From a virus, in the IMG/VR virus record IMGVR_UViG_3300025086_000123, positions 1 to 32,647 of that record: a stretch of DNA of 32,647 nucleotides; one strand, given 5' to 3'. Position numbers and translations under genes: made by a program. The stretch's first letter is position 1. The number at the start of each line of letters is the position of its first letter. Under the pieces are notes generated by a model. It was given only the letters and a program-made list of their open reading frames with translations, had not been told where the DNA came from and did not search any database. Positions 4,737 through 20,271 of this stretch are shown piece by piece.

Positions 4737-5021
4737 TTACCACAGCGAAACCGCTGTAACAAGCAAAACAAGAACTATGATTGCAAACGCTGATCCTGCC
4801 ATCATTTTCTTTGACCATCCTTCCCTTGGTTTGTCTGAGTGAATATCGACATGTCCTCGCAGATTGATTGAGATCCACTCACCAACTCTTGCTGGCGCTT
4901 CGCCATATTGCGTGTGAACCCAGAGCTTCTTAGATCCAGCGCGTTTGCTGGTGTTGTCTTGAACCCAATCTGGGAATGTAGATTTAAAGCCAGTGAACTT
5001 CCAAGATTTAATGATCATCAT
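4737..5021 (-). CDS. Small C-terminally anchored membrane protein
   Basis: A 94-aa protein of unknown function, last gene of the early-left cluster. The N-terminal 70 residues are polar and basic (PREGWSKK just before the membrane), followed by one hydrophobic segment at about 72-93 (AFAIIVLVLLVTAVSLW), so it is probably a tail-anchored inner-membrane protein with its N-terminus in the cytoplasm. Its ATG overlaps the stop of the upstream HTH gene (ATGA), so the two are translationally coupled. A role in modifying host membrane functions or in exclusion is possible but not shown. There is no lysis-gene context here. Confidence 0.7.
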   Translation of the reverse strand: MMIIKSWKFTGFKSTFPDWVQDNTSKRAGSKKLWVHTQYGEAPARVGEWISINLRGHVDIHSDKPREGWSKKMMAGSAFAIIVLVLLVTAVSLW

Positions 5022-5596
5022 TTACCTCTTCTATGGATTGAACAATATTTTTTTTGTTGTGAAGTTAGCGGCTCTCCACAAAGTTTACCCATGAATGCTC
5101 TGCCTTCGCCTATGACATATTGCTGGCATGTTTCAAATTTTTCTTCTGGCCCTCTTTTTTCCCCTTTATCAGATCTGTTCTTTTTTACTTTTTTTACTTT
5201 TTTAAATTCTACATTTAGCCAGTCTTGGATTATTTTTTCTGATACGTTTTTTTTACGCAGTTCGTAGATTATTTCTTTAACAGCTACTTTTCCAACATGT
5301 ATTGTTTCCAAAAGTTTTTGTTGTGATACATTTTCAAGAAACTCTGTGAAGGTCATATTTTCTGCCCCCAGATATCTTATTGCATAGTAAGGCTTATATG
5401 ACATAAATAGGTCACCCATTGTTGTGGCATTTTCCCCCCGCTCAAACACCTTTTCTTGTCTGGTTCCCATTATAATACGGCTTCTTGCTCGCTCTCTGCT
5501 TACTCCCAGCTCATTGCCTACTTCTCGGAGAGTTTTACCAGACCGACTGAGTTTAAGTGCGCGTTGATTAATTTCGTAAGTTCCAATGACCATCAT
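5018..5596 (-). CDS. HTH protein with C-terminal Cys/His zinc cluster
   Basis: A 192-aa predicted DNA-binding protein. Residues 8-42 resemble a sigma-region-4 or resolvase-type helix-turn-helix (LREVGNELGVSRERARSRI). A Lys-rich linker (KKVKKVKKN) leads to a C-terminal Cys157, Cys173, Cys185, His188 set (last part YCSIHRR), which looks like a zinc site. The combination suggests a phage transcriptional regulator that may contact DNA through both ends. It starts with an ATGA overlap on the stop of the MarR-like gene and ends with an ATGA overlap on the next gene. The specific regulatory target is unknown; proximity to the late operon makes a late activator one possibility. Confidence 0.72.
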   Translation of the reverse strand: MMVIGTYEINQRALKLSRSGKTLREVGNELGVSRERARSRIIMGTRQEKVFERGENATTMGDLFMSYKPYYAIRYLGAENMTFTEFLENVSQQKLLETIHVGKVAVKEIIYELRKKNVSEKIIQDWLNVEFKKVKKVKKNRSDKGEKRGPEEKFETCQQYVIGEGRAFMGKLCGEPLTSQQKKYCSIHRRGK

Positions 5597-5910
5597 TTAT
5601 CTCCAAACATTTTATTCATCAGGCTCTCACCCTTGGGCGTGAGACTAATGCTTCGGTGACGCCTATCATCATGCATCATTTCTATTTCGATCAGCTCTGC
5701 CGCCTTGACTTTGCCTCTGCTATTACTGGAGAGCGAGTGCAGCAATCTATTGAGAGTAGATTTCTTCATACCTATTCTCTCGGACAGATCTGCGCTGGTG
5801 ATTGGCTGCTTCTGGCAGATGATTGAGAACACTAACATGTGATTGATTGATGTCTGAGTTGAATCTAGTACACCCAGAAACTCTTGAATTTGATTTTCCA
5901 TTCTATTCAT
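5593..5910 (-). CDS. MarR-like winged-helix regulator
   Basis: A 105-aa protein with a winged-helix fold pattern: a helix-turn-helix around residues 36-62 (PITSADLSERIGMKKSTLNR) and a wing containing DDRRHRSISLTPKGESL, the usual MarR D-R-x-x-x-S/L-T-x-x-G signature. The frame extends 16 codons further upstream to an ATG at 5958, but the ATG at 5910 overlaps the stop of a 44-codon gene as ATGA, the coupling used throughout this cluster, so I take 5910 as the start. It is slightly shorter than typical MarR proteins (about 140 aa) because the first dimerisation helices are reduced. Ligand and operator are unknown. Confidence 0.72.
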   Translation of the reverse strand: MNRMENQIQEFLGVLDSTQTSINHMLVFSIICQKQPITSADLSERIGMKKSTLNRLLHSLSSNSRGKVKAAELIEIEMMHDDRRHRSISLTPKGESLMNKMFGDK

Positions 5911-6041
5911 AGCACCACCGAAAATATTAATATTATATAGAGGGTCAGCATTAAGCATAACCCTCCAAATATATCTCCTAAGACGCCAAGCGCGTCCTCC
6001 ATTTCACGCAAAATATCGCGCAATTCTTTTATCTTATCCAT
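5907..6041 (-). CDS. 44-aa membrane microprotein
   Basis: Short gene coding for MDKIKELRDILREMEDALGV followed by a hydrophobic C-terminal half (residues 28-44, Leu/Ile/Val-rich), which would be a single membrane span behind an amphipathic helix. It starts 8 nt inside the upstream 129-aa gene and its TGA overlaps the ATG of the MarR-like gene. These two overlaps, in an operon where every junction is of this type, are the main support. Function is unknown. Confidence 0.6.
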   Translation of the reverse strand: MDKIKELRDILREMEDALGVLGDIFGGLCLMLTLYIILIFSVVL

Positions 6042-6423
6042 TCTTCAACTCCTCATTTGCGTGGGCATCTCTCACAAGTTCCAAAATAAATTCAGCAATA
6101 CTATCACATTCCAGTTGACGAGTTTGAGTAGCCAGCCAATCAACTTGTTCGTTTGTTAGTGCGTCCAAGACAGTAGATACCGACCCCAGCCTGATGTAGT
6201 TTTTGTGGTGACGAGCGTGTGAGATTGCCTTTTTAAATATTGGAGGCAATTCGTTTGCTTCACGACCACGTCGGAGTGCAGAGTTTACCTTATTGAACTT
6301 GAACCCCAGCTTTGCTGAGATTTCTCTGGCAGACAAACCCTCCCTAGATAGCTGCCATATTTTCAAGGTGTCTGGCTTCCTCGAATAGCTCCGCAACAAT
6401 TCATTAATGGATGTCTTGATCAT
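6034..6423 (-). CDS. Helix-turn-helix protein
   Basis: A 129-aa protein with a helix-turn-helix near residues 20-52 (LSAREISAKLGFKFNKVNSA), similar in pattern to sigma-4 or GcrA/terminase-like HTH domains that recognise DNA through a short three-helix unit. A basic middle (KKAISHARHHKN) precedes an acidic helical C-terminus (DSIAEFILELVRDAH). Coupled by ATGA to the 48-aa gene upstream and by an 8-nt overlap to the membrane microprotein downstream. It is one of three putative DNA-binding proteins in this cluster; targets are not evident. Confidence 0.7.
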   Translation of the reverse strand: MIKTSINELLRSYSRKPDTLKIWQLSREGLSAREISAKLGFKFNKVNSALRRGREANELPPIFKKAISHARHHKNYIRLGSVSTVLDALTNEQVDWLATQTRQLECDSIAEFILELVRDAHANEELKNG

Positions 6424-6754: not shown

Positions 6755-7038
6755 GCCGCCGCCTCCTTTTTTGAGAAGGCAGCATAAAGATCTCTGGCCG
6801 CTTCATGCCAAGACTTTTTGGTTATTGGGCTTTCGCCTCTGACGTGATGCCAAGTTGAGGTATCGCGTGTTGTGCCACATGGAGCTGTTGTGGTCTTATA
6901 GATCTTGCCGATCACGATATATTTATCGTCGCCGTAACGCTTCCAGAGGATAATCCCTTCTGCGTATTCTCCAGATCCCTCGACGCGGCATCTGATGTCG
7001 AAGCCATTCTTTTTGTATTCCATTCTGCGTATAGACAT
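6751..7038 (-). CDS. 95-aa hypothetical protein
   Basis: Predicted small soluble protein. The first half alternates short strands (GEYAEGIILWKRYGDDKYIV), the second half contains TTAPCGTTRDTSTWHHV and a helix KKSWHEAARDLYAAF. It begins at a TAATG junction with the 69-aa gene and ends in an ATGA overlap. No family recognised. Its position as second gene of the early-left transcript suggests early expression. Confidence 0.68.
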   Translation of the reverse strand: MSIRRMEYKKNGFDIRCRVEGSGEYAEGIILWKRYGDDKYIVIGKIYKTTTAPCGTTRDTSTWHHVRGESPITKKSWHEAARDLYAAFSKKEAAA

Positions 7039-7247
7039 TACACGATCTCCTTTGATGGAATTGATTTTACGAGTGCTTCTATGCCGCCTTTGGCATACTG
7101 GTATGCATCCATTGATGAAAAGCTGTTGTCATAACCCTGTGGGTTATCCATGTTAAACTTGTCACGCGCTGCTTCGAAGCCCATGCCTTGGATGTCTTTG
7201 CGAACCGCGTAAAACCCAGCAAGGTAATGTTTGTTTGTTGTGGTCAT
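7038..7247 (-). CDS. 69-aa hypothetical protein, first gene of early-left operon
   Basis: Encodes a 69-aa protein (MTTTNKHYLAGFYAVRKDIQ at the start). It is preceded by an A/G-rich leader (AGAGAGAGGGAGAGGAG) giving a GGAG ribosome site, and by the promoter at 7279-7306. The same type of leader precedes the plus-strand genes at 17609, 18258 and 19086. The stop and the next start share TAATG. Function unknown; being first behind a repressible promoter it should be among the earliest proteins made. Confidence 0.75.
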   Translation of the reverse strand: MTTTNKHYLAGFYAVRKDIQGMGFEAARDKFNMDNPQGYDNSFSSMDAYQYAKGGIEALVKSIPSKEIV

Positions 7248-7278: not shown

Positions 7279-7306
7279 TACATAAGACATCTGTCATAGA
7301 TTGCAA
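7279..7306 (-). promoter_or_regulatory. Early leftward promoter with TGACA-GA-TGTCT operator
   Basis: Minus-strand sigma70-like promoter: -35 TTGCAA (7301-7306), 16-bp spacer, -10 TATGTA (7279-7284). The spacer carries TGACA-GA-TGTCT (7285-7296), one mismatch from the inverted repeat found in three plus-strand promoters, and the whole block aligns base for base with them (CCCCTTG..AATCT.TGACA..TGTC). Confidence 0.75.
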
Positions 7307-7706: not shown

Positions 7707-7889
7707 ATGCAAGGCTTTAAGATCACTTACCAAATCGGCTCAGATGACGAAATTGAAAGCCACACAAACATTATCAATGCCGCAGATGCAGATATGGCAG
7801 TGACTTATTTGCTAGAACAGAAAGACGAAAATGGTTTTCCACTATCGTCAATTATCATGCTGAAAATCACAAAAGTTGAACGCGTATAA
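7707..7889 (+). CDS. 60-aa hypothetical early protein
   Basis: First gene of the rightward early set. It has a clear ribosome site (TTAGGAGAG) six bases before the ATG. The product is acidic, with a strand-rich start (FKITYQIGSDDEIESHTNII), a central helix (AADADMAVTYLLEQKDE) and a final strand pair ending KITKVERV, which suggests a compact alpha/beta fold. No family recognised. A UUCG hairpin follows six bases after the stop. Confidence 0.72.
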   Translation: MQGFKITYQIGSDDEIESHTNIINAADADMAVTYLLEQKDENGFPLSSIIMLKITKVERV

Positions 7890-9312: not shown

Positions 9313-11604
9313 TCAATGTTGTGGTGGGGCGAAATAAGCAAACCTTGGCTTGCCCCTCTGACCCTCGTTTGTCTGGCGGTATTCAATACCGCGATCCTCT
9401 TGCAGTGCCGCGAAAACTTCTTTGCGCCGTCTGGGTTCCATATTTGCGAAGGCCGACACTGTGCGTGATATCTGACTTTCGGTAATGCCACCCAGACCAG
9501 ATTTTTCGATCTTGGCGTAGACGGCTTTACACGCTGCATCAAATGGACCCTCTGCCATGTTTGACCTAAACATCTCAATGGTCTGCTTGGCGTAGTGATC
9601 GACATAATCGATTGACCACTGCATTGCGTCTGGACCGATTTCATCTTGGCCCATTGATCTGGATATGATCAAAGACAGGCGCATGGCGATCTCTCTGGAT
9701 CGATTGTACATGGCCTCCAAGCCAGTGCCAGTCTCTCGCCTAATGGCATCCACCAGTCGCTCCTCATAAGATCTGAGCAGTGTCTCAGCCTCAAACGTGA
9801 ACGGAACCTCAATTGGGTTTGGTGGCATGTCATGTGCATTGCCCAAATCTAAATCACCAATCTGCGCGTGGGCGTGATCCTTTGACCATGTTGCCAGACG
9901 TTCTGAGATATTTGATCTGCGTTTTTTCTGGGATAGCTGCACCCCGATCTCAGACTTTACGATAACGAATCGGTTCAGCAGACCAGACGCTACGTCACCA
10001 CCACCAATTGCCTGCATAAATTCAGACGGCGTTGACATGCCGACTAAGGTCAGGCTGGGGCGCTTTACCACCTTCTCTAGTTTCTCAGCATCTGCCGATT
10101 TCATGGTATTGGTTGCGTAGCCTTGCTGTCGGAGCGTGCCATCCTGTCGGCCAAAACATTCCATGATGGATGTTAGTGCATCTGCCTTGTGTTGGTTTCC
10201 CTTGGCAGCGGCTGACTTCAGTTGTCGTCCAAGCTCGTCCACTACCGAAACGTGTGTAGGTTTTTTGGTGAGCGTTGAAATCACCCCAGCAGCAGACGTG
10301 TAACCAGCGGGTCCGATCAACTCATCAAGCCCGGCCTCTTCGAGCAGCTCTTCGAGGACAGTCTTGGAATGCTCTTTGCCTGATCCTGTCTCGCCAATGT
10401 TGAGGAAATATAAAGAAGAGAAGTTTCTCTGATCTGTCACCCAACGTCTACCCATCACCACAGATCCGAAAGCTATAGCTGCTTGGACTGCAAACTGTGG
10501 CTGTGGTTTGATTGCTGTGACCGTGTAGTAGTTGACAACATCTTGCAACACGCCCGGTACACTTAAAAGATTTTCTGGTACGCTATCCAGAGGATTGTCG
10601 GATGACTTGGCTGGCTTTGATAAAATTTGGTCTGCAATTTTTGCGCCGTGATCGATGGCCTCTTTGTCATATTCATAATCTGGATCATTAGTGACGTTTA
10701 AAACTTGGGCGGCTTCTTTGACTGCGTTGCTGACATTGCCCTGATGCTCGTACTGGAGATACAGCTCGAAGGCATCGAAGGTGTGTGCGCTGTCAAAGGG
10801 ATCGCTGGCATGGTGCGAGTAGGCACGGCCATCATCAAACAATTTTACTCCAGCCAGTTTAGATGTGGAGTTAGGCGACAGGTATCTGCTGCGCGATGTT
10901 GGCTTGTAGCCATACTGCACCAGAAGTGTGTGCATGTCGTTGGCCTCATTATAGGCGTCGATCACACTGGTGCTGTCACCTTTTGGCCTTGGCTTCTTGG
11001 TGGGCTGAAACTGCGACTTCTTTTTCCAAGGACATATGTCTTGGAGCTGGGTTCTAAATTTATCCCAATCCTTCCAGAGCGTCAGGAGCTGTGTCGGCAG
11101 CTCTGGTAGTCCATCCCAGATTGGCATGCCTGACCACTCATACGGACGCCCAGTATCTGGGTGGATCGATGGTGGCAGAACATCTTGCACTGACCCAGCT
11201 CTAAGCTCGAAGACCACTTCGGTCTTGCGTGGATCTTTCTCAGTCGGCCACGATATTTTGTGTGTCACAAGATCTGGTGGAGCCTTGAAGATCAGCTTGC
11301 CACGATTTTCACGCCCAATGATTTGTGGTGCGGAGTTCATCAGTAAGCTGAAGTCGATGCCCAGCTCCTCAAAAATCAGCTTGGTATTCTCGACGTGATC
11401 GATATCAACAGCGCACGTTCCTGATGCGCCATGTAGCAAACCAACATTATGTGTGGGGTTTTTCTCATAGTATGCGCGAGCGGCTTCTGGATCTGACAGT
11501 GCCTTTTCTGGCTGCTGCCATCCAAAGCTCGTTGGCCCCTTTGATCCTGCTGGGATCGTGACTAAATACCAGCCCAGTTTTGAGCAATATTCTTCTATCT
11601 TCAT
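9313..11604 (-). CDS. PrimPol-DUF3987 primase-helicase
   Basis: A 763-aa replication protein. The N-terminal 180 residues form a PrimPol (bifunctional primase-polymerase) domain: NVGLLHG at 53-59, metal-binding CAVDIDH at 64-70, RENRGKLIFKAP at 98-109 and LPPSIHPDTGRPYEW at 143-157. The usual S-x-H motif is replaced by the ENRGK form seen in phage relatives. The C-terminal half is a DUF3987/D5-like ATPase with Walker A GETGSGKEHS (404-413), Walker B HVSVVDE (451-457) and a sensor region TLVGMSTPSEF. It would prime and unwind DNA at the phage origin. It follows the 59-aa XRE-like gene with an ATGA overlap and leads the DUF6378 and methyltransferase genes. No separate DNA polymerase gene exists in the window. 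Confidence 0.9.
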   Translation of the reverse strand: MKIEEYCSKLGWYLVTIPAGSKGPTSFGWQQPEKALSDPEAARAYYEKNPTHNVGLLHGASGTCAVDIDHVENTKLIFEELGIDFSLLMNSAPQIIGRENRGKLIFKAPPDLVTHKISWPTEKDPRKTEVVFELRAGSVQDVLPPSIHPDTGRPYEWSGMPIWDGLPELPTQLLTLWKDWDKFRTQLQDICPWKKKSQFQPTKKPRPKGDSTSVIDAYNEANDMHTLLVQYGYKPTSRSRYLSPNSTSKLAGVKLFDDGRAYSHHASDPFDSAHTFDAFELYLQYEHQGNVSNAVKEAAQVLNVTNDPDYEYDKEAIDHGAKIADQILSKPAKSSDNPLDSVPENLLSVPGVLQDVVNYYTVTAIKPQPQFAVQAAIAFGSVVMGRRWVTDQRNFSSLYFLNIGETGSGKEHSKTVLEELLEEAGLDELIGPAGYTSAAGVISTLTKKPTHVSVVDELGRQLKSAAAKGNQHKADALTSIMECFGRQDGTLRQQGYATNTMKSADAEKLEKVVKRPSLTLVGMSTPSEFMQAIGGGDVASGLLNRFVIVKSEIGVQLSQKKRRSNISERLATWSKDHAHAQIGDLDLGNAHDMPPNPIEVPFTFEAETLLRSYEERLVDAIRRETGTGLEAMYNRSREIAMRLSLIISRSMGQDEIGPDAMQWSIDYVDHYAKQTIEMFRSNMAEGPFDAACKAVYAKIEKSGLGGITESQISRTVSAFANMEPRRRKEVFAALQEDRGIEYRQTNEGQRGKPRFAYFAPPQH

Positions 11605-12656: not shown

Positions 12657-12724
12657 AGACTGAAATGGAAATGGAAAAAATGCTGGATGAGATATTCAGC
12701 AAAATATTCGGGGGTCTATTCTAA
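12653..12724 (+). CDS. 23-aa linker microprotein
   Basis: A 23-codon frame between the hydrolase and Sak4-like genes, rich in Met, Glu and Lys (MKTEMEMEKMLDEIFSKIFG). It overlaps the upstream stop by ATGA and shares TAATG with the downstream start. Either it makes a small amphipathic helix or its only role is to carry ribosomes to the ATPase gene. Confidence 0.45.
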   Translation: MKTEMEMEKMLDEIFSKIFGGLF

Positions 12725-13479
12725 TGGCCATTAATTTAAAATCACTGTCGAAACCCACCGGGCAACGGCCAGTCATAGCGACCCTCTTCGGGGAGGGCGG
12801 GATGGGAAAGACGACATTGGCTGCAATGTTTCCAAATCCTGTGTTTATTCGAACTGAGGATGGCACAGCCAGCCTACAGGGGAATGAGAACGTCAGCCTG
12901 TTTCCGCTCGCTACGTCCACGCAGGACGTGCTGGATGCCATTGAAGTTTTGGCGACAGAGAAACATGAGTTTAAGACAGTTGTGATCGACAGCATTACGC
13001 AGTTGGCCACTTTAGTTGAGGCAGAAATTGTCGCTGCCGATCCAAAGGCAAAATCAATAAACCAAGCTGGTGGCGGCTATGGCGCAGGCTATGGCACTGC
13101 ATCTGAGGTGCATCGTCAAATCCGTGAGTGGGCTGGTAGCCTCGCCTATGAGACTGGCATGAATGTCGTGTTTATTGGCCACGCCGATACTGAAACTTTG
13201 GATCTGCCTGATATGGACCCATACGCAAGGTACTGTGTGCGGATGCATAAGAAGTCTATCCCGCACTATACGGATAATGTCGATCTGGTTGGGTTGATCC
13301 GACTGAAGACATTTACACGCGGAGATGGCGATAAAAAACGCGCCATTTCCACAGGTGAACGTGAGATCCTGTGCTTTCCACAGGCATCAAGCGTCACCAA
13401 AAATCGGTTCAATATCACTGAACCACTGCCATTCACTTTTGATGGCGGCAACCCATTTGCAAAATTTGTAGCAGAGTAA
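12724..13479 (+). CDS. Sak4-like RecA-fold ATPase
   Basis: A 251-aa single-strand annealing/recombination ATPase of the Sak4 (AAA_24) type, related to the RecA/RadB core. Walker A is LFGEGGMGKTTLA (residues 21-33) and Walker B is TVVIDSITQLA (85-95). Further conserved elements are GGGYGAGYG near 117-124 and FIGHADTE near 152, typical of this family. It would assist strand annealing or pairing with the DUF669 protein encoded just downstream, which is the usual partner. Length is normal. The stop codon lies inside the A/G-rich repeat at 13473-13490. Confidence 0.88.
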   Translation: MAINLKSLSKPTGQRPVIATLFGEGGMGKTTLAAMFPNPVFIRTEDGTASLQGNENVSLFPLATSTQDVLDAIEVLATEKHEFKTVVIDSITQLATLVEAEIVAADPKAKSINQAGGGYGAGYGTASEVHRQIREWAGSLAYETGMNVVFIGHADTETLDLPDMDPYARYCVRMHKKSIPHYTDNVDLVGLIRLKTFTRGDGDKKRAISTGEREILCFPQASSVTKNRFNITEPLPFTFDGGNPFAKFVAE

Positions 13480-13490
13480 GAAAAGGAAAA
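13473..13490 (+). repeat. A/G-rich leader repeat, copy 2
   Basis: Exact 18-nt copy of 11858-11875. Here it includes the TAA of the Sak4-like gene and the AAAAGGA ribosome site of the DUF669 gene, so the same leader initiates the two genes. Confidence 0.65.
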
Positions 13491-13495
13491 CTCTA

Positions 13496-13972
13496 ATGGA
13501 TCTCAATGGATTTAACGCGCTGGAAATTCAGCCACAGTCAACATACGAACCACTCCCAGCCGATTGGTATAAGTGTGTGATTGCCAATGCTGAAGAAAAA
13601 CCGAACTCAAAAAGAACTGGCTCATACCTCGAACTGAGGATTGAGGTTATAGATGGTCAATATCAAGGGCGTTTAGTCTTTGATCGACTAAACCTAAAGA
13701 ACCCAAATTCTGTTGCTGTAGAAATAGCACAGAGATCTCTATCATCGATATGCCGTGCGATTGATGTTCCAAGCCCAAAAGACAGCGCAGATTTGCTAGA
13801 CAAACCAATGATGGTTAAATTGGCTGTGCGTCCAGCAGAAAATGGCTACGAGGCATCAAACGAAGTGAAGGGCTATGAGGCTGCGGGTGCGGTCAAATCT
13901 GTTGGTGAGGGACTGGGGGCTGTGGCTCCTGCCGCATCAAACGGATCTGCCACACCACCTTGGAAACGATAG
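13496..13972 (+). CDS. DUF669 single-strand-binding-like protein
   Basis: A 158-aa protein of the DUF669 family, which accompanies phage recombinases and is regarded as an OB-fold ssDNA-binding protein. Typical elements are the N-terminal PLPADWYKCVIANAEEKPN, the GSYLELRIEVIDGQYQGRLV strand pair and the LNLKNPNSVAVEIAQRSLS segment. The C-terminus is Ala/Gly/Ser-rich and ends TPPWKR; unlike bacterial SSB it lacks an acidic tip. Adjacent to the Sak4-like ATPase, it would coat single strands during recombination-linked replication. Confidence 0.85.
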   Translation: MDLNGFNALEIQPQSTYEPLPADWYKCVIANAEEKPNSKRTGSYLELRIEVIDGQYQGRLVFDRLNLKNPNSVAVEIAQRSLSSICRAIDVPSPKDSADLLDKPMMVKLAVRPAENGYEASNEVKGYEAAGAVKSVGEGLGAVAPAASNGSATPPWKR

Positions 13973-13984
13973 TTCTATTCTATG

Positions 13985-14010
13985 ATGGGGCGGCTGGTCT
14001 GCCCCATTTT
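13985..14010 (+). terminator. Hairpin with T-run inside the operon
   Basis: ATGGGGC (13985-13991) pairs with GCCCCAT (14001-14007), then TTTT. It separates the DUF669 gene from the Cas4-like gene and could act as an attenuator, lowering nuclease and helicase expression relative to Sak4 and DUF669. A leader similar to the other early genes (GAGTAGAAAGAGAGCAGAAA) follows. Confidence 0.6.
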
Positions 14011-14032
14011 ATGAGTAGAAAGAGAGCAGAAA

Positions 14033-14980
14033 ATGAACTTAGAGCCCTACGCCACGCCCAAAACAATTGAGGCGATTTACCAACACTACAAAGACAAACG
14101 CAAGAACGAGCATCGTCCTCATCTTGGCGGCAGTCAGATTGGCAATCCATGCAGCCGCGCATTGTGGTATCAGTTTAGACACGCTTGGACGCCTAACTTT
14201 GATGGGCGTCTTTTGCGTTTATTCGAGACTGGTGATCGAGAAGAGGATCGCGTTGTGTCGAACCTTCGAGCGGTTGGTGTGACGGTCTGGGAGCGAGATC
14301 CAGACACTGGCAAACAGGTCAGGTTCGAGGCCTGTGGTGGACATTTTGCTCTATCATTGGATGGCGTTGGGGAGGGCTTTGCGGAAAGCAAAAAAGCTCA
14401 CACTCTTGAGTTCAAAACGATGAACGACAAAAATTTCAAGGCCACCAAAAATATGGGCGTCCAGAAATCCAAGCCAATTTACTGGGCACAATGCCAGATT
14501 GGTATGCATCTCGCTGAAATGGATCGCTGTTATTTTATAGCTGTCAACAAAAACACAGATGAGATCTATGGTGAGAGGATCAAGCTCGACAGGGCAGAAG
14601 CAAAAGCGCTGATTAGCAAAGCTGAAAACATTGTATTCTCTGCCCTACCGCCAGATAAACTGCACGATGATCCGAGTAATTGGCAGTGCAAGTTTTGCCC
14701 TTACTGGGCTGTGTGCCACGGCTGCAAGATTCCAGAGGTTAGCTGTCGGACGTGCAGCCATGTGACGCCAGAGCAAGACGGCACTTGGAGCTGCTCAAAG
14801 GGTAAGCCTACTGTCACTTGTGATGAGCATTTGTACATCCCACAGATCATGCCGCCAGACCTAGAGGTGTCAGACGCTGGTGATGATTTTGTTGAGTATG
14901 AGGATCTGGACAGCGGAGAAATAATCCGAAATCAAAACAACAGCCGCGAGATATTTGAGTCGAGGATGCGTGATGAGTGA
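14033..14980 (+). CDS. Cas4-like PD-(D/E)XK nuclease
   Basis: A 315-aa exonuclease of the PD-(D/E)XK superfamily, related to Cas4/RecB-type phage nucleases. Active-site residues are Asp110 in LSLDGVGEG, Glu126 and Lys128 in LEFKTMN, and Gln155 in YWAQCQIGMHL. Cys40 in GNPCSRALWYQF with Cys219, 222, 228 and 231 (CKFCPYWAVCHGCK) is the usual Cas4-like iron-sulphur or zinc set. A second cluster follows at Cys238, 241, 254, 263 and His266, forming an extra zinc-ribbon-like module. It would resect DNA ends to feed the Sak4/DUF669 annealing pair. The last 8 nt overlap the next gene. Confidence 0.87.
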   Translation: MNLEPYATPKTIEAIYQHYKDKRKNEHRPHLGGSQIGNPCSRALWYQFRHAWTPNFDGRLLRLFETGDREEDRVVSNLRAVGVTVWERDPDTGKQVRFEACGGHFALSLDGVGEGFAESKKAHTLEFKTMNDKNFKATKNMGVQKSKPIYWAQCQIGMHLAEMDRCYFIAVNKNTDEIYGERIKLDRAEAKALISKAENIVFSALPPDKLHDDPSNWQCKFCPYWAVCHGCKIPEVSCRTCSHVTPEQDGTWSCSKGKPTVTCDEHLYIPQIMPPDLEVSDAGDDFVEYEDLDSGEIIRNQNNSREIFESRMRDE

Positions 14981-15227: not shown

Positions 15228-16872
15228 ACTTCGAGATTATCAGAAAGAGGCTGTCGATGGCCTGTACAATTACTGGGCTGGAAAGGCTGGTGATAACCCT
15301 CTGATTGTTGCGCCGACTGGATCTGGCAAAACGGCTATTATCGCGCAGTTGATCAAGGATGCCATGAGCTATCCTGACACCAGAGTTCTGGTTGTAACGC
15401 ATGTGAAAGAGCTTCTGGAGCAAGGCGCAAGTGGGCTGCTAAAACTCTACCCAGAGGCTGATTTTGGCGTATACAGCGCAGGGTTAAGGCAGAAGGTTCT
15501 AGACCGCCCAATCACGTTTGCAGGCATCCAGAGCGTCTGGGAGAGGGCGTATGACATTGTGCCAGCTCCTGACTTGGTTTTGATCGATGAGGCACACCTA
15601 TTGCCCAAAAATACTGAGACACGATACAATCGATTTATTGCCGATCTGAAGGTTTGCAATCCACTGGTGAAAGTAGTTGGGCTTACAGCCACGCCGTACC
15701 GATTAGACACAGGATATTTGCATCAAGGAAAGGGCAGAATCTTTGATGGCATTGCCCATGACATACCTGTGGGGATGCTGATGGAGCAGGGGTATCTCTC
15801 CCCGGTCATCTCGAAGGGTGGTGTTAAGCAGATTGATTTGACAGGTGTTGGAAAACGAGGCGGTGAGTTTATCGAAAGCCAGCTTGCCACGGCTGCGTCT
15901 GATCCAGAATTGGTCAAATCAACTGTCGAAGAAATTGTAGATCTGGGGTCTGATCGAAAAAGCTGGCTGGTGTTTAGCAGTGGAATAAATCATGCAAATA
16001 TGCTGGCTGATGAGTTCGAGGGGCAGGGGATAGACGTTGGTGTGGTGACAGGTGGCGACAGTAGTGCAGTGCGCGAGAGGACCATTGCTGATTTCAAGAG
16101 CGGTCAACTGCGATGCCTGATTAATGTGAACGTGCTGACCACAGGATTCGATCATCCAGAAGTGGATCTGGTTGCGCTTGTTAGAGCGACAGCTTCGACT
16201 GGCTTGTATGTTCAGATGGTTGGGCGCGGGACGCGGATTGCTGACGGCAAGGAAAATTGCCTGATTTTAGACTACGGCCAGAATGTCGAGCGGCATGGCT
16301 TCATCGATAAGGTAAAGCCAAAGGACAAATCGGCAGGCGCGGGGGATGGCGAAGCCCCTGCAAAACAATGCGAGAGCTGCCAGACGATGGTTCACGCAGC
16401 CTGTCAGATCTGTCCATCGTGTGGGTTTGAGTTCCCTGCTCCGACACTCAACCACAGCGCAAGCAGCTATCGTGGGGCCATGCTATCGTCACAGGTGCAG
16501 TCTGAGTGGGTTGACGTTGATGACGTTAAATATCGTCGGCACAGCAAGGCTGGTAAACCTGACAGTGTGAAAGTCACTTACAAATATGGTTTTTTTGAAG
16601 AGGTCTCGGAATGGCTTTGCCCAGATCACGGCGGCTATGCGTCAGGCAAATATCAGCAGCGTAAGCGCCTATTAAATTCTGAGGCTGACACGACTGATGA
16701 CGCCCTAAACGAATGTCATTTTTGGACAACGCCCAGTCGAATAAAAATTAAACCATCCACCCACAATCCGAAATACAAAGAGGTTGTAGAGTTTGATTAT
16801 ACCCAAGTGGAGATAAAAAATGAGGCGCAAAGTAAGGACTTCAATCGTTTCGGTGACGAGATACCCTTCTGA
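15217..16872 (+). CDS. Superfamily 2 DEAH helicase with zinc finger
   Basis: A 551-aa helicase. Motifs in order: Q-like RDYQ at 6-9, motif I APTGSGKTA (32-40), motif II IDEAH (123-127), motif III GLTATPYR (155-162), motif V NVNVLTTGFDHP (303-314) and motif VI QMVGRGTR (333-340). After the core comes a zinc finger with Cys385, 388, 396, 399 and 402 (CESCQ and CPSCGFEFP). The start is the ATG at 15217, with GGGAGGA seven bases ahead; two upstream codons are excluded. It resembles RecG/UvsW-type or RAD25-like phage helicases that remodel forks and recombination intermediates, complementing the primase-helicase encoded to the left. Confidence 0.9.
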   Translation: MTFELRDYQKEAVDGLYNYWAGKAGDNPLIVAPTGSGKTAIIAQLIKDAMSYPDTRVLVVTHVKELLEQGASGLLKLYPEADFGVYSAGLRQKVLDRPITFAGIQSVWERAYDIVPAPDLVLIDEAHLLPKNTETRYNRFIADLKVCNPLVKVVGLTATPYRLDTGYLHQGKGRIFDGIAHDIPVGMLMEQGYLSPVISKGGVKQIDLTGVGKRGGEFIESQLATAASDPELVKSTVEEIVDLGSDRKSWLVFSSGINHANMLADEFEGQGIDVGVVTGGDSSAVRERTIADFKSGQLRCLINVNVLTTGFDHPEVDLVALVRATASTGLYVQMVGRGTRIADGKENCLILDYGQNVERHGFIDKVKPKDKSAGAGDGEAPAKQCESCQTMVHAACQICPSCGFEFPAPTLNHSASSYRGAMLSSQVQSEWVDVDDVKYRRHSKAGKPDSVKVTYKYGFFEEVSEWLCPDHGGYASGKYQQRKRLLNSEADTTDDALNECHFWTTPSRIKIKPSTHNPKYKEVVEFDYTQVEIKNEAQSKDFNRFGDEIPF

Positions 16873-17188
16873 ACACGATGAACAGGTTGGATTTGTTAAT
16901 TGGTTTCGAGCTAAGTTTCCAAGAGTTTTGATATTTGCCATTCCAAACGGCGGCAAGAGATCGATCTCTGCTGGCAAAAAGTTCAAGGCAGAGGGTGTTG
17001 TGGCTGGGGTTCCAGACCTGTTTATCCCTGAGTGGAACTTGTGGGTGGAGATGAAACGAGAACGCGGTGGGCGACTTTCCCCCGATCAAAAAGATATGAT
17101 CGCCTACCTTGAGGGGATTGGCCACTGCGTGGTTGTGGGCAAGGGCGCGAAGGATGCTTCGAAGCAGATTATGGATTTTAAAAAATGA
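16820..17188 (+). CDS. VRR-NUC nuclease
   Basis: A 122-aa minimal VRR-NUC domain, a PD-(D/E)XK nuclease often with Holliday-junction or flap activity. Active-site residues: Glu18 (SEHDEQVGFVNWF), Asp66 in VAGVPDLFIP, Glu77 and Lys79 in LWVEMKRE, plus Gln90 in RLSPDQKDM. The N-terminal FAIPNGGKRS loop is standard. It starts from a GGAGATAAAAA ribosome site and overlaps the helicase gene by 53 nt in another frame. As a junction-resolving nuclease it would finish recombination products or debranch DNA before packaging. Confidence 0.9.
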   Translation: MRRKVRTSIVSVTRYPSEHDEQVGFVNWFRAKFPRVLIFAIPNGGKRSISAGKKFKAEGVVAGVPDLFIPEWNLWVEMKRERGGRLSPDQKDMIAYLEGIGHCVVVGKGAKDASKQIMDFKK

Positions 17189-17554: not shown

Positions 17555-17582
17555 TTGTAATCTGTGACGGATGTCATATGTT
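17555..17582 (+). promoter_or_regulatory. Repressible early promoter 1
   Basis: TTGTAA (17555-17560), 16-bp spacer, TATGTT (17577-17582). The spacer holds TGACG-GA-TGTCA (17565-17576), one mismatch from a perfect inverted repeat. A GTGTAGAGAGAGAGGAAA leader follows and contains the ribosome site. Confidence 0.8.
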
Positions 17583-17608
17583 GGTTGTGTAGAGAGAGAG
17601 GAAATAAA

Positions 17609-18163
17609 ATGTTTACTAAATACGCAATCACCATAATCGACACAGTTAGCACGCGCGATGGATCACGCAGCCACACTGCTAAGAAAGCCTACTTCGAAAA
17701 ACTCAGCAGCTATAATGGTTACTTACATGCCAGCTCAACAGTCACGACTACCTTCGACAGCCAAGAAGCTGCTGAAAATTTCATCGAAGAGCTGCCTGTC
17801 AGCCACTGTGGTGAGTATAATAACAAATACGAATATGGTGTCGAAGCTATCGAATACACCCACGCAAACCACAGTGGATGGTCTGACGTACATCCATATG
17901 AGATCGTGCGCGTTGTATCCCCAAAGACAATTGAGATCCGCGTGATGGATGCGGAACTGGACAAAAATTGGAAGCCTGAGATCATTGCTGGTGGCTTTGC
18001 TGGTCACTGCACAAACCAAGGCGCTCAGAAGTGGGATTACAAATCAAATCCTGAATACACCGTGATCCGCGCTCGCCTTCGCAAAGATGGCTATTTTCAC
18101 TCAGCCAATGGACGCCACGTTTTGTCGAAGACGCCTCACAAATTTCACGATTATAATTTTTAA
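17609..18163 (+). CDS. Conserved early protein of unknown function
   Basis: The ATG at 17609 follows the shared leader GAGAGAGAGGAAATAAA; an upstream ATG at 17564 would begin inside the promoter and is rejected. The 184-aa product has an N-terminal domain with a strand and SQEAAENFIEELPVSHCGEY, and a C-terminal domain HPYEIVRVVSPKTIEIRVMD, ELDKNWKPEIIAGGFAGHCT and a closing KFHDYNF. I recall this C-terminal domain as widespread in phages and plasmids without assigned function. It is a single-gene transcription unit with promoter and strong terminator, typical of genes acting on the host soon after infection. Confidence 0.78.
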   Translation: MFTKYAITIIDTVSTRDGSRSHTAKKAYFEKLSSYNGYLHASSTVTTTFDSQEAAENFIEELPVSHCGEYNNKYEYGVEAIEYTHANHSGWSDVHPYEIVRVVSPKTIEIRVMDAELDKNWKPEIIAGGFAGHCTNQGAQKWDYKSNPEYTVIRARLRKDGYFHSANGRHVLSKTPHKFHDYNF

Positions 18164-18168
18164 TAAAT

Positions 18169-18191
18169 AGGGGCTTCGGCTCCTTTTTTTT
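18169..18191 (+). terminator. Strong rho-independent terminator
   Basis: AGGGGC-UUCG-GCUCCU stem-loop followed by eight T. It directly precedes promoter 2, so each gene in this block is transcribed separately. Confidence 0.88.
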
Positions 18192-18203
18192 GCCTACCCC
18201 CCC

Positions 18204-18231
18204 TTGTAATCTGTGACAAATGTCATATATT
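18204..18231 (+). promoter_or_regulatory. Repressible early promoter 2
   Basis: TTGTAA (18204-18209), 16-bp spacer, TATATT (18226-18231). The spacer contains a perfect TGACA-AA-TGTCA (18214-18225). It is followed by the GTAGAGAGAAAGGAAA leader. Confidence 0.82.
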
Positions 18232-18257
18232 AGTTATGTAGAGAGAAAGGAAACACT

Positions 18258-18989
18258 ATGAAAAATGTAAACATCAAACCAGTCAACAATGGCAAAAAAG
18301 CAGCAGACCGCAATCGCTACTGTGGCCCAGCCGTCATCAGCGCAGTCACTGGTATGACTACTGGAGAGGCTGCTCGACTGATTCGTCATGTTGGTGGACG
18401 CAAATCCATCAAAGGCTCAACTACACATGAAGTCATAAGATCTCTTGAGATGTGTGGCATTAGAGGTCAGCACAAAACATTTGGACTTGATCTTGATCGT
18501 AGCAGTGGAGTGACACTAGCTGGCTGGCTCAAGTCTACAGTCAAAGAACGCACAGCCAATCGTGTGTTTTTGATCGTTGCTGGTTGGCACTGGCAACTGG
18601 TTCAAGGACGCCGCTACGTTTGTGGGATTGTTGGTGATGTGGTCAGCATCAAAGACAAAAAGGTAAAACGCCGTGCGCGTGTAGCCGAAGTCTATGAGCT
18701 TACATCAATGGGCGCGATCACTACGCCCAGCGAGGCTATAAAGCCAAAGCGTGTGGCGTGTGGTGCAGACAGGGATCGTGGCAAAGCTCAACGCCTAGCA
18801 AAGAAGATGGGCATGGAGATCACCATTGAGCGTTCTGGGTATGGAGAGAATGCGTACTGGATCGATTACGAAAGTGAAGACGATTATGTAGATCTTGGCG
18901 TAATCGAAGGCCACTGCTCATACGACTGGCAAGAGGTGTTCTGGAAGCTCCAAGAAATCGAGCAGCACCAACAAAAAAAGGCAGCATAA
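18258..18989 (+). CDS. Papain-like (C39-like) cysteine peptidase, early
   Basis: A 243-aa protein with the hallmark of C39/papain-like peptidases: Cys22 in NRYCGPAVISAVTGM, a helical segment, then His111 in VAGWHWQLVQG and a likely third residue, Asp127, in CGIVGDVVS. Such folds cleave peptide or isopeptide bonds, often after double glycine, or act as amidases. The C-terminal third (KAQRLAKKMGMEITIERSGY, EDDYVDLGVIEGHCSYDW) is extra and may bind a substrate. There is no signal peptide, so it acts in the host cytoplasm. Placed alone between a repressible promoter and a strong terminator, it is a candidate host-takeover or anti-defence protein. Catalytic activity is inferred from the Cys/His pattern only. 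Confidence 0.72.
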   Translation: MKNVNIKPVNNGKKAADRNRYCGPAVISAVTGMTTGEAARLIRHVGGRKSIKGSTTHEVIRSLEMCGIRGQHKTFGLDLDRSSGVTLAGWLKSTVKERTANRVFLIVAGWHWQLVQGRRYVCGIVGDVVSIKDKKVKRRARVAEVYELTSMGAITTPSEAIKPKRVACGADRDRGKAQRLAKKMGMEITIERSGYGENAYWIDYESEDDYVDLGVIEGHCSYDWQEVFWKLQEIEQHQQKKAA

Positions 18990-18996
18990 ATTAATT

Positions 18997-19017
18997 GGGG
19001 CTTCGGCCCCTTTTTTT
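18997..19017 (+). terminator. Strong rho-independent terminator
   Basis: GGGGC-UUCG-GCCCC (18997-19010) followed by seven T. The bases after it (TGCCTACCCCCC) match those after the terminator at 18169, showing that terminator and promoter were copied as one block. Confidence 0.9.
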
Positions 19018-19029
19018 GCCTACCCCCCC

Positions 19030-19058
19030 TTGTAATCTGTGACAACTGTCACTATCTA
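19030..19058 (+). promoter_or_regulatory. Repressible early promoter 3
   Basis: TTGTAA (19030-19035), 17-bp spacer, TATCTA (19053-19058); an alternative -10, TATAAT, lies at 19057-19062. The spacer has a perfect TGACA-AC-TGTCA (19040-19051). An AGAGAGAGGAAA leader follows. Confidence 0.8.
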
Positions 19059-19085
19059 TAATGTATAGAGAGAGAGGAAATCAAA

Positions 19086-19937
19086 ATGACACGCATCGAC
19101 ACACACCGCCCAAGCGCCATAGAGCCCAGCGAATACGCATTTGTATCTTTCCACAGCCATCGCGCCGATGATGTATGGGAATCAATTTCAGAGCAGCAAG
19201 CGTTTCGCTCACACATGATATCGACTGGCGCAAAATTCTCCACCCATAGCCATGGTGGTTCGTGCCATGTGTGTGGCGCTCACGCTTATACCGTAGCACG
19301 TTTTCATCACGCGCCCACAAACACTTATGTCGAGGTTGGCGAAATCTGCGCCGAAAAATTGCACAGCGGCGAAGCGCTTAACTTTCGCTCTTTTCGCGCA
19401 AAGGCCAAGGCTGGAATGGAAGCTGCCGCTGGCAAGGCTAAGGCAGAGCGCTTTCTTAAAGACGCTGGCGTGACTTGCGCTTACGACATTTGGCTACAGA
19501 AAGACTACGATAATTGGGAATGGGAGGAAGCGACTATTTTCGATATCGTGAGCAAGCTAGTTCGCTATGGCAGTATCAGCGACAAGCAAGTAGCGTTTAT
19601 TTCCAAGCTGATGAAAAAGATTGATGACCGAGCGGAAATCGCAGCTCAAAGAGCCGCAGAAGCCGAAGCCGCTGCGCCAATTCCTTGCGACGGTGAGCGC
19701 ATTCACGTTCGCGGTGAGGTAATTACAACCAAGTATGTAGAAACCAATTTTGGCGAGATCCTTAAAATGCTTGTGCGCCACGCTGACGGTTGGAAGGTAT
19801 GGGGCAGCGTCCCTGCGAGTATAGATCCTTTGCGCGGTGACATCGTAACTTTCGACGCCAAGGTAAACGTCAGTAAGGATGACGAAAAATTCGGGTTCTT
19901 TAGCCGCCCGACTAAAGCAAAAATTTTGGGCGCATAA
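19086..19937 (+). CDS. Zinc-site early protein of unknown function
   Basis: A 283-aa cytoplasmic protein. A probable zinc site uses Cys60 and Cys63 (CHVCGAHAYTV), a His near 74-75 and Cys88 (VEVGEICAEKL). A helical Lys/Ala-rich middle (RAKAKAGMEAAAGKAKAERF) and an acidic stretch (NWEWEEATIFD) follow, then a C-terminal strand-rich domain (IHVRGEVITTKYVETNFGEI; DIVTFDAKVNVSKDDE; TKAKILGA) that looks like an OB fold and could bind single-stranded nucleic acid. Third of the individually controlled early genes. The family is one I have seen in phages and plasmids without function. Confidence 0.72.
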   Translation: MTRIDTHRPSAIEPSEYAFVSFHSHRADDVWESISEQQAFRSHMISTGAKFSTHSHGGSCHVCGAHAYTVARFHHAPTNTYVEVGEICAEKLHSGEALNFRSFRAKAKAGMEAAAGKAKAERFLKDAGVTCAYDIWLQKDYDNWEWEEATIFDIVSKLVRYGSISDKQVAFISKLMKKIDDRAEIAAQRAAEAEAAAPIPCDGERIHVRGEVITTKYVETNFGEILKMLVRHADGWKVWGSVPASIDPLRGDIVTFDAKVNVSKDDEKFGFFSRPTKAKILGA

Positions 19938-19943
19938 GCGCCC
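19928..19943 (+). terminator. Hairpin over the stop codon, weak terminator candidate
   Basis: GGGCGC-ATAA-GCGCCC surrounds the TAA of the preceding gene. There is no T-run, so it may rather affect termination of translation or mRNA stability. Confidence 0.35.
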
Positions 19944-19968
19944 ATACTAACCAAGAAGATTACTAATA

Positions 19969-20076: not shown

Positions 20077-20271
20077 ATGAAAGTAAATGAACATGGATCA
20101 CCCGCCGATAGAGGAAGTGCCGACGCTTACTATGGACGCAGAATGAACCCACACTGGTGGCCTAGCGGCTCCTACGAAGGCAAGCGCGTTGAAAGCAAGG
20201 ATATGTCCCAATCGCAGATAGATGCCTATGTAGAGGCTTATGAGGCGCAGGACAGCTTTAAGGACTGGTAG
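20077..20271 (+). CDS. 64-aa GS-DRGSAD-type phage protein
   Basis: Encodes a 64-aa protein with HGSPADRGSADAYYGRRMNP and a C-terminal acidic helix (IDAYVEAYEAQDSFKDW). I recognise the G-S-P-x-D-R-G-S-A-D-x-Y-Y-G-R block from many small phage proteins of unknown function. It has a good ribosome site (GAGAGGAAA). The gene ends two bases from the convergent end of the ejection-protein gene, so no terminator separates the two transcripts. Confidence 0.75.
   Translation: MKVNEHGSPADRGSADAYYGRRMNPHWWPSGSYEGKRVESKDMSQSQIDAYVEAYEAQDSFKDW

Follow-up and report, generated by a model that had tools for sequence, protein, structure and literature searches.

The locus at positions 17555 to 19937 is likely an array of accessory-gene modules in CRP-901-type roseophages, in which each module has a promoter/operator-like block, exchange probably takes place in the core of that block, and all modules may belong to one regulon. 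The window, which is the whole stretch of DNA analysed (32,647 nt), is an IMG/VR virus record (IMGVR_UViG_3300025086_000123) whose nearest isolates are the Roseobacter phages CRP-901 and CRP-902. These form a new abundant genus with hosts in the CHAB-I-5 lineage of Roseobacter (PMC10149686); the text of the paper, searched by term, gave no mention of promoters or terminators. The genome of a CRP-901-type phage is ~53 kb.

A conserved block precedes each of three single genes

The gene starts given by the original prediction, at 17609, 18258 and 19086, proved to be real, and each is preceded by a block laid out as a TTGTAATCTGTGAC-NNN-TGTCA core, ~12 nt, TAGAGAGAGAGGAAA and ATG. The array comprises the following features.

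16820 to 17188, + strand: VRR-NUC nuclease gene, backbone, left anchor (Pfam VRR_NUC, E 7e-5, just under the cut-off; phrog_824, E 5.5e-39)
17555 to 17608, + strand: control block 1 (core 17555-17576, leader with TAGAGAGAGAGGAAA)
17609 to 18163, + strand: cargo gene 1, family F2, 184 aa (four-fold-site identity; step at block 1)
18169 to 18190, + strand: UUCG-loop intrinsic terminator, GGGGCTTCGGCYCC plus T run, end of gene 1 (RNA fold -9.1 kcal/mol)
18204 to 18257, + strand: control block 2 (core 18204-18225 and leader)
18258 to 18989, + strand: cargo gene 2, family F1, 243 aa (homologue alignment, AF2 model, Foldseek)
18997 to 19017, + strand: UUCG-loop intrinsic terminator, GGGGCTTCGGCYCC plus T run, end of gene 2 (RNA fold -10.8 kcal/mol)
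19030 to 19085, + strand: control block 3 (core 19030-19051 and leader)
19086 to 19937, + strand: cargo gene 3, family F8, 283 aa (C-terminal domain common to F3 and many unrelated phages)
19927 to 19944, no strand assigned: terminal hairpin of gene 3 (-14.1 kcal/mol; no T run on the + strand)
19955 to 19966, + strand: remnant GAAGATTACTAA, 12 nt, last codons (E-D-Y-stop) of family F3 (alignment with L011)
20077 to 20271, + strand: small gene F6, 64 aa, right anchor, without its own block (comparison with relatives)

The exact 22-nt core, TTGTAATCTGTGACNNNTGTCA, occurs three times (at 17555, 18204 and 19030) and is followed each time by a short AT-rich stretch, TAGAGAGA(G/A)AGGAAA and ATG. When up to three mismatches were allowed, the window contained four matches against 0.01 expected from dinucleotide shuffles, and none of 100 shuffles reached four.

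The locus had been described beforehand as three terminator-promoter-leader units. Genes 1 and 2 do end in UUCG terminators, and the near identity from terminator to promoter was upheld, with 18162-18253 matching 18989-19080 at 85% identity across 93 nt. The unit structure holds for blocks 2 and 3 and fails for block 1, which has no terminator upstream (RNA fold 0 kcal/mol). A promoter of its own had also been claimed for each gene; a conserved block is indeed present ahead of each, while the promoter within it is a prediction with irregular hexamer spacing. In some blocks TTGTAA and a TATATT-like hexamer are 16 nt apart, but of the 77 unique blocks 27 have a perfect TATAAT at a distance of 19-23 nt, leaving the -35/-10 assignment of the putative promoter ambiguous. 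A MerR-type long-spacer promoter was rejected because the spacer to the best TATAAT varies from 19 to 23 nt. If the promoter model is true, transcription at the array blocks would start a few nucleotides upstream of, or within, TAGAGAGAG.

A variant of the block was also seen ahead of genes at L115:805-838 (+), L010:2076-2110 (-) and L121:7049-7082 (-), with TTGTAATTCGTGACACTTGTCA in L115 and L121; the genes behind it look structural in L010 and L115.

Cargo genes vary between conserved blocks among related phages

One exact scan of viral contigs found the core in 33 stretches, and further relatives were added by wider scans and by scans with the flanking genes. The resulting comparison set consisted of 41 records with 95 blocks, in which the genes behind every block were called and then clustered. 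Pattern matches L116-L126 in viral contigs (except L119, L121 and L124) and L208, L209 and L212-L215 in genome contigs were discarded as unrelated sequences; the block matches in genome contigs that resemble the block are all on phage-like contigs. Short contigs with the array were present inside bacterial assemblies, namely L211 (Rhodobacteraceae bacterium SB2) and L210 and L216 (MAG UBA12010), suggesting that a phage of the CRP-901 type was co-sequenced or carried.

Aligning the locus across these relatives bore out the predicted modular organization, with conserved control blocks and variable cargo between them. The three-gene set of the window, whose presence in the same order in all relatives would have spoken against such a locus, was found only in L031, a record 99.9% identical to the window. 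The array shows ~27 junction types (L026, from a truncated stretch, set aside) and ~17 small cargo families, which never all occur together. The VRR-NUC gene has the same position in CRP-901 and CRP-902, and 11 kinds of gene (F2, F1, F7, F13, F25, F5, F37, F51, F56, F8 and F58) come first after this anchor and its small ORFs.

Gene 1 has a four-fold-site identity of 91% between the window and CRP-901/CRP-902, compared with 26-66% for backbone genes (the helicase is at 45% with CRP-901 and 43% with CRP-902), and in each of the six relatives that were profiled identity steps up at block 1. By this measure, the cassette made up of gene 1 and its block, if no other, has moved recently between lineages. 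F1 gave no such sign of recent transfer between the window and CRP-901, its four-fold-site identity being 62% where the backbone is at 26-63%.

The arrangements themselves point the same way. In L046, block 1 on the left is fused to block 3 on the right, and genes 1 and 2 are missing; the backbone and flanks of this record are 88-93% identical to the window. L011 and L042 (98% identical) are without gene 1 and have F3 where the window has F8, and L040 has a different small gene in slot 1. The slot of the F3 remnant is occupied by F3 in relatives, and the last codons of F3 behind F8 indicate that F8 replaced F3. The records are mostly metagenome contigs, in which repeats of this kind could give misjoins, and the junctions in L046, L040 and L054 are each supported by one contig; the overall pattern is also supported by two cultured isolates, CRP-901 and CRP-902, and by arrangements seen in many contigs.

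A fixed ancestral gene set pared down by lineage-specific losses, with zero exchange, would fit the partly conserved order (F2 first, F3 or F8 usually last). This explanation is very improbable, since gene 1 has about twice the synonymous identity of most of the backbone, orders are permuted (F1-F7 in L050, F7-F1 in L062) and the ~17 families are never found together. Judged from these comparisons, the identity of gene 1, the L046 junction, the permuted orders and the F3 remnant demonstrate exchange, beyond loss alone.

Exchange probably occurs within the repeated core

Across the 95 blocks, the core is 91-96% identical in all classes of block pairs, whatever the neighbouring genes. In the left flank (45 nt), identity is 0.74-0.86 if the preceding gene is shared and 0.57-0.60 if not; in the right flank (70 nt), it is 0.89 if the following gene is shared and 0.70-0.72 if not. 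Functional constraint alone could explain the core identity. The blocks might be kept as promoters only, with illegitimate recombination and selection for a working promoter turning the cargo over, and the block not being the site of exchange. The right boundary of the F3-to-F8 replacement, which lies in the last F3 codons and outside any block, agrees with such a process and means that block-to-block recombination is only part of the story. We nevertheless consider it unlikely that the blocks serve as promoters only, as the change of parent in L046 and L011 falls inside the core, between flanks that are each 88-98% identical, and the high-identity segment of gene 1 starts at block 1 in six relatives. 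The phage also encodes an annealing system of the type that uses short, diverged homologies, in a recombination module (12724..14980) directly upstream of the array.

12724-13479, + strand: Sak4-like annealing ATPase (phrog_124, E 1.5e-47)
13496-13972, + strand: DUF669/SSB protein
14033-14980, + strand: Cas4/RecE-like exonuclease

In the available text of the sources, Sak4 is a single-strand annealing protein whose activity its cognate SSB stimulates (PMC5928155), and recombination between short, diverged sequences is carried out by phage annealing proteins (PMC8093625). With Sak4, SSB and exonuclease all encoded, core-mediated exchange is plausible, and these proteins are a plausible engine for it. 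In the modular array that we favour, a module would be one gene (sometimes two) with its own putative promoter/operator block and, often, a terminator of its own. Homologous recombination or annealing within the repeated core, probably by the phage Sak4/SSB/exonuclease, would exchange modules, and a gene that gains a block could be moved in or out with the transcription of its neighbours undisturbed.

A palindrome in the block and a candidate phage regulator

The block has a GTGACA-NN-TGTCAC palindrome, flanked by TTGTAA on one side and the AT-rich -10-like stretch on the other, a position expected of a repressor site. The palindrome could be the site of a host regulator, so that the cassettes would answer to host physiology: its TGTGAC-NNN-TGTCA half-site spacing is that of a CRP-type site (TGTGA-N6-TCA). 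Seven exact matches to the palindrome occur in two Rhodobacteraceae genomes (3.6 and 2.9 Mb), every one of them on a phage contig, making a phage regulator likelier than a host regulator; a CRP/FNR-type host operator was rejected for this reason. The inner TGACA-NN-TGTCA is conserved, whereas the outer TCACA half of a CRP-type site is not, and control by the host appears quite improbable.

A phage-encoded candidate is present in an operon that is itself headed by a block.

7285 to 7306, - strand: diverged fourth block, three mismatches, heading a leftward operon (ORF 7247..7038 and onward)
5593 to 5958, - strand: MarR-like winged-helix protein, candidate regulator, within this operon (gp02 in CRP-901)

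Matrix scans found four strong copies of the block in the same array of CRP-901 and CRP-902, plus one or two ahead of the leftward operon (1598 (-) in CRP-901; 1939 (-) and 2254 (-) in CRP-902). The MarR-like gene is present in 5/5 block-bearing genomes or records that reach the region and in 0/14 block-less relatives (four of them 44-53 kb), a co-occurrence that is confounded by phylogeny and drawn from a set in which several block-bearing contigs end before the operon. We infer from this correlation that the MarR-like protein is a candidate regulator of the blocks. More tentatively, the palindrome may be the operator of a phage-encoded regulator, most likely this protein. The MarR-like operon itself starts with a block variant, and under such a regulator all cassettes would belong to one regulon.

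Two ORFs in the same region, at 5018-5596 (-) and 6034-6423 (-), have weak similarity to sigma-70 region 4; they were rejected as block regulators because block-bearing CRP-901 and CRP-902 have no homologue of them. The XRE regulator at 11601 was rejected because it is found in block-less relatives too.

Properties of the cargo genes

Cargo genes 1-3 gave no functional match in PADLOC, Pfam or NCBIfam and belong to no known defence family in these searches; their PHROG matches are families without known function. In gene 2 (F1), C22, H111 and D133 are invariant in 32 homologues. The AF2 model of this protein has a pLDDT of 89.4, and its top Foldseek matches in the PDB are cysteine proteases, at weak significance (best E 0.007, with a target TM of 0.54 for the C39-type domain 6mpz); Pfam gave no protease match. 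Gene 2 probably has a C39/papain-like cysteine-protease fold, as predicted from the model. Such a fold is compatible with a role in host takeover or anti-defence and is not evidence for it. F1 was found only in phage sequence, and its single match among 101 host-family genomes searched was a phage contig itself. Profile comparison gave weak support for F1' (159 aa) as an F1 homologue (prob 48%, E 2e-4) and none for F13. The latter family (135 aa; L012, L049 and L216) carries a GDCGVRA...H motif, which hints at a second cargo of the cysteine-protease-like type.

The C-terminal domain of F2 also occurs in phages of Pseudomonas, Yersinia and Bacillus, and that of F8 in phages of Klebsiella, Microbacterium and Arthrobacter, among others; the fold prediction for F2 was too poor to use (pLDDT 62). 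F10, which is a cassette gene behind a block in CRP-901 and CRP-902, has a homologue elsewhere in the window.

7707 to 7889, + strand: F10 homologue (~51%), at another locus and behind a different promoter

The cargo genes are probably expressed early, with the host or its defences as their putative targets.

Relation to known systems

The closest known system to the array appears, by analogy, to be the PeSL (promoter-early stem-loop; Arbiol 2010, Comeau 2014), described in the available text of PMC4503421 as 'mobile regulatory cassettes' of T4-type phages. In both, a promoter and terminator stem-loop are repeated between small accessory genes and linked to shuffling between related phages. 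The composite of predicted promoter and stem-loop is present at blocks 2 and 3, with block 1 lacking the terminator, and cargo variation among related phages with exchange at the elements is found in the array. The array differs from the PeSL in the parts of that source available to us: its phages are CRP-901-type (~53 kb) rather than T4-type with host-like early promoters, its hexamers are irregular, its sequence is unrelated with a conserved palindrome in the promoter region, its terminator is not always present, and the accompanying recombination system is Sak4-type.

The SAS/ESAS of cluster K mycobacteriophages (Pope 2011, PMC3203893) likewise mark some of the gene starts with a conserved repeat; in the portion of that source available, about half have an inverted repeat just upstream, and a role in gene expression is proposed. 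SAS are RBS-centred, 13 bp long and found in 11-19 copies genome-wide, whereas the blocks occur in 1-4 copies concentrated in one array; the same portion describes neither a terminator unit nor cargo swapping at SAS. The 13-bp GGGATAGGAGCCC was not found at the start codons here, where the leader is TAGAGAGAGAGGAAA.

Single-gene units placed head-to-tail with a common short sequence also recall integron-like gene cassettes, in which case the cores would be recombinase attachment sites. This is scarcely credible: neither CRP-901 nor CRP-902 has an annotated integrase, and the core lies upstream of each start codon beside an RBS-like leader, not at gene ends as an attC would. Phage morons are autonomous promoter-gene-terminator insertions and resemble the array in adding a gene that has a promoter and terminator of its own; here, one lineage-wide block is instead reused for many tandem cargo genes at a single locus.

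Generality and significance

In other phage contigs (e.g. L048, L063, L292, L331 and L335), homologues of F1, F2, F10 and F25 follow repeated blocks of a different kind, and other homologues of the cargo families sit in plain operons. L335 is part of a contig of 168 kb that has TTGTATTTGATGCAACCCC...TATACT blocks. It is conceivable, though we hold it as doubtful, that the block is a lineage-specific 'address': a gene acquiring it would join a phage-encoded regulon (under a MarR-like repressor or activator) and become exchangeable, and unrelated lineages would share a cargo pool. Given the homologues in plain operons, lineage-specific blocks with a shared pool are a possibility and not a rule.

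The 22-nt core provides a searchable mark for the ~17 small gene families traded among these phages. Phage hot spots of this kind elsewhere are rich in host-takeover and anti-defence genes, and the locus is a good place to seek genes used against the host, as had been proposed. The block offers a means of listing such cargo in the uncultured phages that infect the abundant CHAB-I-5 lineage of Roseobacter, and the array offers a testable model of how a phage may keep exchanged genes under one control.
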